Source: Endomicrobium sp. (GTDB taxonomy: Bacteria > Elusimicrobiota > Endomicrobiia > Endomicrobiales > Endomicrobiaceae). Taken from it: a stretch of 52,716 bases of DNA. The DNA lies in the NCBI GenBank assembly GCA_031290155.1, contig JAITOB010000011.1, positions 1 to 52,716 of the forward strand. Direction: 5' to 3'. The number at the start of each line of letters is the position of its first letter. Position 1 is the first letter of the stretch. Of this stretch, positions 26,259-41,378 are shown one piece after another. The notes below the pieces were generated by a model. It was not told the DNA's origin. It saw only the letters and a list, made by a program, of their open reading frames with translations, and ran no database searches. Both the position numbers and the translations under genes were made by a program.

Positions 26259-26620
26259 TCATTTTAAAAGTTTATTCATTTTGTTTATGAGTTCATCTAT
26301 ATTAAACGGTTTTAAAATACAGTCATCCGTACCTTGCGCAAGCGGTTCATCAATATGAATAGTGGAATCACTAGTAATCATAATAATCGGCAATTTGCTG
26401 AAACTTTCATTTGATCTTATATCTTTTAATACTTCAAACCCGTTTTTTCTAGGGAAATTTATATCGAGCAAAACTAAACCCGGTTTTTAGCATTAACATC
26501 TCAAAAATAAATCCGCCGGTTGCAGCTTTTACAACATCAAAATTTAGATATCAACATTAACTCAATAGATTCAAGAAATGTCATATCATCGTCAATAATC
26601 AATAATTTTTTCTTATTCAT
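26259..26620 (-). pseudogene. Response regulator receiver domain, broken
   Basis: A single receiver domain with at least one frameshift. LLIIDDDMTFLESIELML carries the acidic pocket, then in another frame LLDINFPRKNGFEVLKDI carries the phosphoacceptor Asp, followed by PIIMITSDST and KPFNIDELINKM with the conserved Lys. No output domain follows. The break lies around 26480-26560. Confidence 0.82.
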
Positions 26621-35603: not shown

Positions 35604-37400
35604 ATGGAAAGAAGATATCAAATAGTAGTTGTAGGGGCAGGGCATGCCGGCTGCGAAGCTTCTTTAGCATGCGCAAGAATGGGTTTGAAGACTTTGGTAA
35701 TAACATTAAATGTTGATTCAATAGCAAGAATGCCTTGCAACCCGGCTGTAGGAGGTATTGCGAAAGGACAAATAGTTAGAGAAATTGATGCCATGGGCGG
35801 TGAAATGGGCTGGATAGCAGACCGAACCGGCCTGCAGTTTAAAATGTTAAATAGTTCGAGAGGCCCCGCGGTTTGGTCGCCAAGAGCCCAATGCGATAAA
35901 GAACTTTACTCAAATTTAATGTCAAAATCTCTCCAAAACCAGCAGAATCTTGATATATTGCAGTCTGAAGTCATGGCTTTAGTAATAAAAAATAGAAAAG
36001 CCTGCGGAGTAAAGATAGTAACCGGCGAAACAATAAATGCAGATGCGGTTATTGTAACTACAGGAACTTTTTTGAAAGGGACAATATATCTTGGCAAAAT
36101 GAATTTTGAAGGTGGTAGATTTAATGAGAGACGGGCTTCCTATCTTTCAAAATCACTTGCTGAAGACTGCGGATTGATTCTTGAAAGGTTTAAAACAACG
36201 ACAACTCCAAGAATTAATGCGCTTTCGATAAATTATTCAAAAATGACTGAACAGCCCGGTGATGAAAAGCCGTATCCGTTCTCTCATTTTACGGAAGTTG
36301 AAAAATGGAGAAAAAATTTAAAACAGCTTTCTTGCTGGCTTACTTATACTAACCCGACAACGCACAAAATAGTCGGCGATAATTTGGCTCTTTCCTCTAT
36401 TGACATAGGCGAAGTTAATAGTAAAAGCCCCAGGTATTGCCCTGCCATAGAAGAAAAAATAGAACGTTATCCAGAAAAAACAAGCCACCATATTTTCGTA
36501 GAGCCGGAAGGATATAATACCAATGAAGTTTATCTAAACGGACTCTATACAGGCCTTCCTTTTGATTTGCAGCAGCAAATGATAAACTCAATAGTTGGAC
36601 TTGAAAACGCAAAGATAATAAGATACGGATACGCAATAGAGTACGATTATTCCAGTCCTTTGCAAATAAAGAATACTCTGGAAACAAAAAACGTTGAAAA
36701 TCTTCTTTTGGGAGGACAAATTAATGGAACGACAGGTTACGAAGAAGCGGCCTCGCAAGGTTTTATCGCAGGAGCGAACGCTTGTCTTAAAATTCTTGGT
36801 AAAGCTCCGCTTATTCTTGGACGGAACAAATCTTATATTGGGATACTTATAGACGATATAACGACAAAAGGCGTGGATGAACCTTACAGAATGTTTACTT
36901 CACGGGCAGAGTACAGACTTTCTATAAGAAATGATAACGCTGATTTAAGACTTATGAATATAGGACATTCTATCGGACTTATATCAGATAAAGCATATAA
37001 AAAATTTGAACTGTATAAAAGAACTCTTGCAGATATATATAAAGGCAATATAAAAAATCTATTTACTAACGAGGAATTGTCTCCTTGGTCTATTGAGAAA
37101 GCAAAAGAAGAAGTTTATATTTATAAAAAATATGAGGGTTATATTGAAATTCAATCTAAAATGGCAAATAAAATAAAAAAAAGTGAAGACAGAAGAATCC
37201 CGGAAGATTTTGATTATAACAAATTAGAATCCCTTTCTACAGAAACAAAACAAAGATTTTTTAAAGCGCGGCCGCAGACTATAGGGCAAGCTTCAAAAAT
37301 GTATGCAATAAAACCTTCTGATATTGCAGTGTTAACTATATATCTTGAAAAACAAAAAAAAGAAAGGAAACATAAATACAATGAAAAACAGAATAATTGA
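35604..37400 (+). CDS. mnmG: tRNA uridine-34 modification enzyme MnmG
   Basis: With MnmE it installs the (carboxymethyl)aminomethyl group on wobble uridine. FAD motif VVVGAGHAGCEASLACARMG, then MPCNPAVGGIAKGQIVREID, GLQFKMLNSSRGPAVWSPRA (catalytic region), GTFLKGTIYLG, LLLGGQINGTTGYEEAASQG, and the C-terminal MFTSRAEYRLSIRNDNADLR. I chose the ATG at 35604 after AGAGGA; the frame is open 22 codons upstream but without a ribosome site. 598 residues is slightly short of the usual 620, at the C-terminus. It leads a plus-strand run ending in rsmG. Confidence 0.97.
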   Translation: MERRYQIVVVGAGHAGCEASLACARMGLKTLVITLNVDSIARMPCNPAVGGIAKGQIVREIDAMGGEMGWIADRTGLQFKMLNSSRGPAVWSPRAQCDKELYSNLMSKSLQNQQNLDILQSEVMALVIKNRKACGVKIVTGETINADAVIVTTGTFLKGTIYLGKMNFEGGRFNERRASYLSKSLAEDCGLILERFKTTTTPRINALSINYSKMTEQPGDEKPYPFSHFTEVEKWRKNLKQLSCWLTYTNPTTHKIVGDNLALSSIDIGEVNSKSPRYCPAIEEKIERYPEKTSHHIFVEPEGYNTNEVYLNGLYTGLPFDLQQQMINSIVGLENAKIIRYGYAIEYDYSSPLQIKNTLETKNVENLLLGGQINGTTGYEEAASQGFIAGANACLKILGKAPLILGRNKSYIGILIDDITTKGVDEPYRMFTSRAEYRLSIRNDNADLRLMNIGHSIGLISDKAYKKFELYKRTLADIYKGNIKNLFTNEELSPWSIEKAKEEVYIYKKYEGYIEIQSKMANKIKKSEDRRIPEDFDYNKLESLSTETKQRFFKARPQTIGQASKMYAIKPSDIAVLTIYLEKQKKERKHKYNEKQNN

Positions 37401-38164
37401 TATTTATTTTTTTACAGGTACCGGCAATACATATCTTGCAGCAAAAAAAATTTCTGAAACTCTGAGTAAAAATAAATGTTTCATTACTTTGAACGATATG
37501 ACAAGTCCCGATCCTGAAAAAATAAATTTATCAAACACAATAGAATATGTTTTCCCATTACAGCATGGAACACGTTCCCTGTTGTAAAAGATTTTATAAA
37601 CAATTTGCCGGAGCTGTGGACCGAGGCGTTTTATTTACTGCTATGGGCGATTCTTTTCTTAAAACTGCTGCAAATTTGGCGGTATTCTTAAGAATAAAGG
37701 TTATTTATTAATTGGTGCGCATGGTTTTTTAATGCCCAATAATTTTATATCCGTATGTAAAAGAGACGATAATATTGCTAAAATAGAAAAAGCGTATAAA
37801 AAAATGGAAATTTATACGAAATCGCTTGCAGACGGCGTGCAAAGGCCGAAAAAAACAAATTTGTTTTTTAAAATGTGGTTTTGCAGTCTCAGATTTTATA
37901 ACTAGCAGATGGCGTAAAAATTTGTTTCAAAAAATTATTAAATTTAACATAATTAAGATAGATGCACAAAATGCGGACTTTGCGTTAAGATGTGTCCCGT
38001 TAATATTTCGTTTGAGGAGGAATATCTCATTTTAAGCGGCAGCAGATGCCAGTTATGTATGAGATGCATATCTTTATTGCCCTAAGCATGCAATAAAATC
38101 TTTTTTTAAGAAAGGGTACTATAGAGCATTAGGTGCAGAGGAGATAAGAAAATGGTTTCTTTAG
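37381..38164 (+). pseudogene. EFR1-type flavodoxin/ferredoxin protein, broken
   Basis: Starts inside the end of mnmG (20-base overlap). IDIYFFTGTGNTYLAAKKIS is the flavodoxin FMN-binding start; later, in other frames, CGLCVKMCPVNI-like and SGSRCQLCMRC-IS-LLPKHAIK give the two ferredoxin [4Fe-4S] Cys clusters. The order (flavodoxin then 2x[4Fe-4S]) is that of EFR1 family ferrodoxins, redox proteins of unknown partner. At least five frameshifts. Ends EEIRKWFL at 38164. Confidence 0.8.
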
Positions 38165-38427
38165 AGTTTTTAGGTTTTACTGCAGGTTTTTTTTCACTAT
38201 GGTTTATATGCCTCAAGTGTACAAAACATGGAAAACAAAATCCGCGAAAGATATTTCAATAGAAATGTTCATTATTAATATACTAAGCGTATTATTATGG
38301 ATAACTTACGGCTTAATATCTCGTAAACCTCCAATTTATCTAACAAATATAGTGGTGTTTACTCTTTTCAATTATTCAGATTACTATGATACTAAAATAT
38401 GGCAAAACGCCTGAAGCAAAAAATTAG
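38152..38427 (+). pseudogene. SemiSWEET sugar transporter, two frameshifts
   Basis: SemiSWEETs are three-helix PQ-loop transporters working as dimers. VSLEFLGFTAGFF is helix 1; after a frameshift in a run of eight T (38191-38198) the protein reads VYMPQVYKTWKTKSAKDISI (PQ motif and loop), MFIINILSVLLWITYGLISR and PPIYLTNIVVFTL, and after another shift ITMILKYGKTPEAKN. Residues are well kept, so loss is recent or reflects sequence error. It overlaps the end of the EFR1 remnant. Confidence 0.85.
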
Positions 38428-39339: not shown

Positions 39340-40759
39340 TTATATACGTCTTAGGAAGTATTTTAATAGCATTGCACTTTTCATTAATTTTATATTAGAC
39401 ATATATTCGCTTGTTACAAGAATAGACTGCTTTTGTAAGCTGAATTTTTCTATTATGTCTATACCGTTCATCTCTTGATTTCTAAGCTCGTAATCGGCGA
39501 GTAAAAATATCTTATCTTTTTCTTTTATTAAATTTATAAAATTAACCGCCTCTGTTCCTTTAATAAAGTACTTAGTTAATTTCTTTTAAATAATTTTGAC
39601 GGTGCCTCCAAATATCGTGAACAGATGTATCGTCGTCTAATATTATTACAGTATCATTATTATGCAGAACAACCTTGGCAGCAAACCATTTTGGAGGTGA
39701 CGATTCAGAGAATATAAGAGTAATTTCTGTGCCAATGTTTTCTCTCTGGATTCAATAAGCATTTGAGCGCTCATATCTTTTAATGTGCTTTTATTTGCTA
39801 CATACCTATGCCGTGTCCGCCTTGTTTTGTTGTGCCTACATCAATGTTATTCGTAATTTTGTTAACCATCTCTTAGGGATACCTTTGCCGTTATCTTTTA
39901 TTTTAATTTCAACCTTCTCTTCTTTTACGATAAAATCGATACCTATAATTCCATCTTTGTCTTCCATAACCTCAACAGAATTGTTTAACAGATTGGATAT
40001 CATACGACAGAAATCAGAATAATCACCTTTTATAAATACAGGCTTGTACAGCGGATTTATAGAATACTTAAATATTACATTCATTGCTTTATATTGATAT
40101 CTTTTGCTGCTGAGAACATTGCGTAAATCCAAATTAACACAAATATCCTGTAATGTTTTATTAATATTATTTTTATATTGTCAGTTATTTTATACTTTTC
40201 AAGTAAATCATTTGCAATATTTTCTATGTTTGAAGCGATATTTTTTAAGATGCTGCGTTCTTTTTCAGATAGATTTTGACAATACTGCGTAAGCATTGAC
40301 AAAGTAGTTAACGGAGAGCGAATATCGTGAGCCGCTCGTTTAGTAATAATTTTAATTTCTTCTTGCAATTTATTTTGCACTTCTAATTCTTCATTTTTTC
40401 TGTCTGTTATATCTATTGGAACGCCTATAATGACGATAACACTGCCTTTGTTATCATAAAAGCGGAGATTTTGTTAACATTGTTAAACTTTTGCTATTAG
40501 AAAGAATGGGAGTTTCTATTATTTCTTCCGGCATTTTAGTTTTAATAATTCTTTGATCTGTTTTTCCTAATATCTTGGAAATATGTTTCCACGATAAATC
40601 ATAATCTATTTTTCTATTATATCTTTTGGAGAATTTAGACCTAATACTTCAACCTCCATTTGATTACATTCCAAATAAACTCCGTTAACATCTTTCCAAT
40701 AGATACATCCCGGTGCATATTGTAAAATATTGTTGAGGTAAGATTTGTTCTTTTTTCAT
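39340..40759 (-). pseudogene. PAS-histidine kinase with C-terminal receiver-like segment, broken
   Basis: Order: PAS domain (YAPGCIYWKDVNGVYLECNQ; DIIGKIDYDLSWKHI), H-box KRAAHDIRSPLTTLSML with the phosphorylated His, N-box MISNLLNNSVEVMEDKDGII, G1 IKDNGKGIP, and GTTKQGGHGIG (G2). A further segment, FAAKVVLHNNDTVIILDDDT with SVHDIWRHR, then FLLADYELRNQEMNGIDII, resembles a degenerate receiver. At least six frameshifts or stops. Complex-sensor type; signal unknown. Confidence 0.85.
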
Positions 40760-40828: not shown

Positions 40829-40856
40829 GATTGCTGTTTATATATAAACAGCAATC
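40829..40856. repeat. 28-bp perfect palindrome
   Basis: GATTGCTGTTTATATATAAACAGCAATC reads the same on both strands across its full 28 bases; it lies between the end of the dead cyclodipeptide synthase and the start of the dead kinase. As RNA it would form a hairpin with an AU-only tip. No T tract directly follows on either strand, so it is not a clear intrinsic terminator. Confidence 0.75.
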
Positions 40857-41378
40857 ATAGAAATGTCTAGAATGTAAATATGAAAAAATTTCAGATATAA
40901 AATTTTACTGCGTCGTCGTTTGTATTAGTTAAAAATACCTTTGCTGGTTAAAACCCACTTTGAAGTTGTTAAACATCTGTTTCTAAAATTCTCATCGTTT
41001 TCATACAATTTTTTGGAAGGGTTATGAAAATTTAGATATTTTTAAGAATATTTAAATAGACTATTATATGCTCGGCTTCAATTGTTGATAATTGATTTGA
41101 TATAAGAAATATTAGCGTTTTGTTTTTTAAATTCTTGTCTTTTAGTTTTTCTTTTTGCTTTTTTCTTCACTATATCCCACAACCTGAAGCGTATATGATG
41201 AAATTTCATCAGGAATACATACGCTTATCTCTTAGCTCCAGTGAAAAAGTTTCTTTAAATTATCTTCTGTATAAGAACCGTTAAACGGACTAATACCGAC
41301 TAAAGCATGCTCTCTCAAATCAAATATTTTTTCAGATTGTACATTGACACAATTTACAAATGTTAATCCAGCGATCAT
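40857..41378 (-). pseudogene. tRNA-dependent cyclodipeptide synthase (CDPS), broken
   Basis: CDPSs join two aminoacyl-tRNAs into a cyclic dipeptide. The minus strand reads MIAGLTFVNCVNVQSEKIFD, then REHALVGISPFNGSYTEDNL (GIS block with the nucleophile Ser), KKLFHWA, then after frameshifts VCIPDEISSYTLQVVGYSEE (the PD-E...AlGY block), KSKRKTKRQ, LYENDENFRNRCLTTSKWVL (F..d..F block) and DDAVKFYI with EIFSYLHS (the Tyr/Glu catalytic helix). Order and spacing match the AlbC-like family. At least five breaks; not functional. It lies upstream of the kinase remnant and downstream of hisS. Confidence 0.7.

Follow-up and report, generated by a model that had tools for sequence, protein, structure and literature searches.

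The subject of this analysis is a stretch of 52,716 nucleotides from Endomicrobium sp. (the window: the whole of the DNA analysed, positions 1 to 52,716 of contig JAITOB010000011.1, assembly GCA_031290155.1), which appears to carry the remains of a two-gene operon encoding a tRNA-dependent cyclodipeptide synthase (CDPS) and, directly after it, a soluble histidine kinase with PAS domains. The genus of the window was taken as Ca. Endomicrobiellum, whose members are endosymbionts of termite-gut flagellates (PMC11257099). The intact pair found in sister species, together with kinases into which a CDPS-like domain is built, suggests that the loss here was of a chemical signalling circuit and not of an ordinary antibiotic. 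The reading that we prefer, to which we give an even chance, is that a cyclodipeptide made by the cell would be sensed by the cell's own cytoplasmic kinase, and that this operon is dead in the window.

The synthase pseudogene lies on the minus strand at 40837..41357, as delimited by PF16715 matches and by a frameshift-aware alignment to intact relatives. The Pfam profile matches the minus strand at 41342-41136 with 46.7 bits (cut-off 27; E 1.9e-12) and again at 41167-40940 with 18.8 bits (E 5.5e-4), the open piece 41411-41232 clears the cut-off by itself (34.2 bits), and the profile has no match in any of 14 control genomes. Aligned to the intact synthase of a congener (G023), the remnant (41357-40832) is 57% identical (95/167), with an in-frame stop at 41234 and shifts near 41150, 41043, 40936 and 40893; the degraded tail aligns poorly, contains a stop at 40840 and, set against another relative, reads 'ILDISMI/LFIYK' facing 'ILNISSSLFVYK'. 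The N-terminal active-site segment HALVGISPFN is still recognisable, and of the catalytic residues only the serine segment is clearly retained. With its stop and some four or five frameshifts the window copy does not form a functional open reading frame, and the locus is a pseudogene of the CDPS family, not a working member of it. A first-pass annotation had claimed a CDPS remnant at 40857-41378, a placement correct to about 20 bases; the claim is borne out by the 46.7-bit match, which lies above the Pfam cut-off, so that the insignificant profile score which the annotation had named as speaking against it did not occur. The four peptides on which it relied do follow one another in the order given on the reverse-strand translation, HALVGISPFN and IPDEISSYTLQVVGY sharing one frame and LYENDENFRNRC and DDAVKFYI occupying the other two.

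The next gene downstream, absent from that annotation, is a PAS histidine kinase pseudogene (39704..40755, minus strand), 55% identical (190/343) to an intact kinase of the genus (G020). One PAS domain is left and the core is recognisable, but the frame shifts about five times and meets a stop at 39800; a kinase query matches the window at 40752-40189 and 40168-39692, and an HATPase_c match covers 40027-39863. The gene order is the same as in the intact loci, in every one of which a PAS histidine kinase directly follows the CDPS gene with a gap of -38 to 22 bp. This adjacency is found in seven Endomicrobiellum loci, on a plasmid of Legionella lytica and on one contig of the IMG/VR collection (L080). 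In the G023 kinase, Pfam recognises two PAS_4 stretches and HATPase_c, the kinase H-box is intact, and no kinase segment reaches transmembrane-level hydrophobicity; the partner kinase is thus predicted to be soluble and cytoplasmic. An AlphaFold2 model of the kinase built from two sequences had a pLDDT of 35.5 and was not used. A small PQ-loop transporter gene follows the kinase in two genomes (G024 and G019). Elsewhere in the window, a remnant on the minus strand at 630-811 resembles that transporter (43-61% in two frames by tblastn), and a separate short open reading frame on the plus strand at 38199-38414 is PQ-loop-like by eye.

CDPS genes were found in 12 of 341 Elusimicrobiota genomes, all of them within Ca. 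Endomicrobiellum, and the intact orthologues for which the first-pass annotation had proposed a search are thus present in the same genus. The gene is open and full-length in six genomes (G014, G019, G020, G023, G024 and G049), and in a seventh (G041) it is open as far as the contig end; the full-length intact relatives score 154-170 bits against the CDPS profile. Copy pairs with moderate dS give a dN/dS of about 0.12-0.4; taking the CDPS and the kinase genes together, values run from about 0.1 to 0.4, a range that points to purifying selection on both in intact copies. On a tree of MnmG from 36 genomes, in which G041 was scored as broken although it is merely cut by a contig end, the three states (intact, broken, absent) are mixed among close relatives, with five changes each, a pattern that fits old presence and repeated loss; the genomes that lack both CDPS and kinase group together. 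The G020 synthase (L026 9159-9848) shares 97% identity with the G041 enzyme over its first part and about 54% beyond, and is likely a recombinant.

The residues Ser37, Tyr178, Glu182 and Tyr202 (AlbC numbering) are nearly strict among active CDPSs (PMC7566563), and all of them, along with Asn40, are kept in the intact relatives. An AlphaFold2 model of one such relative (L018; pLDDT 85) has a TM score of 0.83-0.87 to the top-ranked structures of NYH CDPSs, so that the predicted fold is the Rossmann CDPS fold, and NYH is the nearest subfamily by overall sequence and fold. The intact relatives thus have in common with the NYH enzymes AlbC, YvmC and Rv2275 the profile (PF16715 / TIGR04539), the fold and the Ser37/Asn40/Tyr178/Glu182/Tyr202 set; they differ in having a kinase as neighbour, not a P450 or oxidase, and at position 203, the window copy differing further in being a pseudogene. 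Of the NYH trio Asn40/Tyr202/His203, the Asn and Tyr are kept, whereas each of the seven Endomicrobiellum enzymes whose C-terminus can be read has Lys at position 203; the L080 enzyme has Asn there, and that of L. lytica His. A prediction of substrates from the P1 and P2 pockets was dropped as unreliable, position 203 being unusual.

The kinase family is multi-copy within the genus, and some paralogues (L041, L043 and L045) carry, in frame with the kinase, an N-terminal domain without a Pfam match. These domains form two groups, both restricted to Ca. Endomicrobiellum within the phylum, and their closest solved relatives are the XYP CDPSs (Rgry 5MLP, Fdum 5OCD and Nbra 5MLQ). For group B (alignment A3), the top five hits of a PDB profile search are all XYP CDPS chains (E 1.8e-7 to 1.8e-5), and hhalign against a profile of three XYP structures gives 83.9 (best shuffled score 22.8). 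For group A (alignment A2), the same comparison gives 67.1 (best of 100 shuffles 23.7); the direct PDB profile search with this group, and phmmer of single domains against PDB, returned no CDPS. Profile comparison gave no match of either group to an NYH-type alignment, nor of the two groups to each other. Like the XYP enzymes, group B keeps Pro203 (12/12) and almost always Tyr202 (11/12), and thus has the Tyr202-Pro203 pair that marks XYP members, while differing from them in the fusion to a histidine kinase and in having mostly Phe for Tyr178, with Lys for Glu182 in two. Group A has the equivalents of Ser37, Tyr178 and Glu182 in 16 of 16, with His for Tyr202 and Val or Ile for Pro203, likewise in all 16, and so lacks the XYP pair. 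The group B domain is accordingly best described as a putative divergent XYP-type CDPS, and that of group A as CDPS-like, not classed as an XYP member, with homology supported by the hhalign score alone. No match to either group was obtained on plasmids (tblastn) or viral contigs, and CDPS-kinase fusions are undescribed in the open-access literature searched. Across 42 congeners, CDPS genes co-occur with the kinase (p = 3e-5), as do the fused domains (p = 1e-10), and response regulators too co-occur with CDPS, fused domains and kinase, all of these statistics ignoring kinship.

Outside the genus, the pair is found in two distant settings. On the L. lytica plasmid, the CDPS gene (J2N86_RS14205; 38% identity) overlaps the gene for a PAS histidine kinase (J2N86_RS14200), an adjacency like that in Endomicrobiellum; the host is a gammaproteobacterium and its kinase, unlike those of Endomicrobiellum, bears receiver and Hpt domains. 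On the IMG/VR contig L080 (IMGVR_UViG_3300049926_000093), the CDPS gene overlaps a PAS kinase gene, which is followed by a receiver gene; this contig also bears ParA-like and SSB-like genes, named by eye from sequence. A phage search with the L080 CDPS as sole query gave no match. Four other plasmid CDPSs that were inspected lack a kinase neighbour and adjoin genes for P450s, transporters or metal transport. A survey from 2018 counted PAS with the non-biosynthetic domains that occur most often near CDPSs, and put forward quorum sensing as a role (PMC5767969). The first-pass annotation had offered a signalling or defence role in the host cell, and the constant soluble PAS histidine kinase neighbour favours the former over the latter, by way of genomic context. 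Some examples of autoinducer synthases paired with sensor kinases are CqsA/CqsS of Vibrio and LqsA/LqsS of Legionella, in which the gene for a small-molecule synthase stands beside that for a histidine kinase, as here; the synthase chemistry is unrelated, the Endomicrobiellum kinase is soluble and PAS-based, and signal sensing by it is only inferred.

Synthase and sensor parts also seem to vary together. In G019, the C-terminal part of the CDPS (83%) and the last PAS domain (80%) resemble those of G023, while its kinase core is like that of G014 and G024 (68% vs 43%), in agreement with the tree position of G019; this mosaic might conceivably be a chimeric assembly. Across seven genomes, identity in the CDPS C-terminal part correlates with that in the last PAS domain (r = 0.61, 65/5040 permutations) and not with that in the first (r = 0.06); with the kinase core, in the five genomes that have it, r is 0.34. 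The synthase C-terminal part and the last PAS domain thus appear to vary together across species, and the kinase core does not. At the secA-lnt site, both genes having been identified by eye from sequence, G028 bears remnants of the two-gene type, G027 the remains of a two-gene-type CDPS next to a group A fusion, and G042 a group A and kinase stretch ahead of lnt. Across this site (L030 9359-11989, L031 9877-11065, and L047), the module types differ by species, as if replaced.

In the preferred reading, the intact synthase probably draws on two aminoacyl-tRNAs and, through its active-site serine, couples their amino acids into a cyclic dipeptide that it then releases. This molecule, or its level, which would depend on tRNA charging and on leakage out of the cell, is probably detected by the last PAS domain of the neighbouring kinase, and the kinase would pass phosphate to a receiver. 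Since kinase paralogues carry a CDPS-like domain in the same polypeptide, several parallel synthase-sensor channels per genome appear to exist. A broader proposal, which we advance more tentatively and at somewhat under an even chance, is a multi-channel network in which CDPSs paired with or built into cytoplasmic kinases allow cyclic dipeptides or aminoacyl-tRNA supply to be read directly by two-component signalling, in which synthase and sensor parts would be swapped together between species, like the switching of signal types in quorum sensing, and which would have collapsed in several lineages including that of the window. Several points weigh against a self-made signal. Mutation of His203 to Ala strongly impairs AlbC (PMC5935735), and with Lys at this important position in all seven readable Endomicrobiellum enzymes, activity is not to be assumed. 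That the fused domains are CDPSs is drawn from distant homology, and, given an invariant His for the strictly conserved Tyr202 in group A and mostly Phe for Tyr178 in group B, some of them may make no cyclodipeptides. Moreover, the co-variation comes from only seven genomes, and the Endomicrobiellum operons hold no dedicated output gene.

The replacement of Tyr202 also feeds a different explanation, which we regard as doubtful: the CDPS or CDPS-like module would detect aminoacyl-tRNA supply directly, its occupancy or turnover controlling the kinase by contact, with the cyclic dipeptide arising as a by-product or, for group A, not at all. The HisRS-like domain of Gcn2 offers an analogue for such a sensor of tRNA charging. 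Input domains usually sit at the N-terminus of a kinase, where these domains are fused, and group A keeps Ser37, Tyr178 and Glu182 throughout while Tyr202, the cyclisation residue, is replaced by His; the AlbC Y202F mutant accumulates the dipeptidyl-enzyme (PMC5935735). In the two-gene type, however, the synthase is a protein of its own that has the whole S37/N40/Y178/E182/Y202 set, and the co-variation points to the last PAS domain, whose fold is of a ligand-binding type, and not to the kinase core.

An ordinary secondary metabolite, made for host manipulation or competition, with the kinase regulating its production upon another cue, is in our judgement unlikely. The tailoring enzymes usual near CDPS genes, which the first-pass annotation had expected to be worth looking for, were not seen adjoining the intact copies; the linkage to a kinase is constant in three unrelated settings and extends to fusions in one polypeptide, and synthase and PAS domain co-vary. 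That the two genes are neighbours by chance in a genome under decay, or form a selfish cassette with no cellular role, would suit a pair found at several chromosomal sites and often decayed, but is very improbable given a dN/dS well under 1 in intact copies and adjacency in all testable intact loci as well as in two distant elements.

Under the preferred reading of a self-made and self-sensed cyclodipeptide, the lineage of the window, in which all copies found are broken, would have lost the circuit as part of ongoing genome reduction. In the window's own genome (85% complete), everything that matches group A, group B, the kinase or a response regulator is broken or fragmentary, with not one intact response regulator found. 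The two-component parts detected in this assembly are all dead, and an intact copy may lie in the missing part. A truncated response regulator receiver domain with one stop (PF00072, E 8.9e-14) lies on the minus strand of the window at 26259-26489. On the plus strand, 37345-38035 holds short broken frames, the first being 'DIYFFTGTGNTYLAAKKISETL', which we take by their look to be a decayed gene of flavodoxin/ferredoxin type (EFR1-like).

The surroundings of the remnant, that is, a CDPS-kinase module that is partly fused and intact in sister symbionts, are more interesting than the remnant itself. The main text of a 2024 comparative study of these genomes is silent on cyclodipeptides, two-component systems and quorum sensing. 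The conserved pair, the fusions and the sister species with intact, broken or absent copies make the idea of cyclodipeptide signalling directly testable. To our knowledge, no role has been assigned to the CDPSs of intracellular bacteria, although these have been known for years. Additionally, these symbionts would illustrate clearly how a signalling network is lost in the course of endosymbiont genome reduction.
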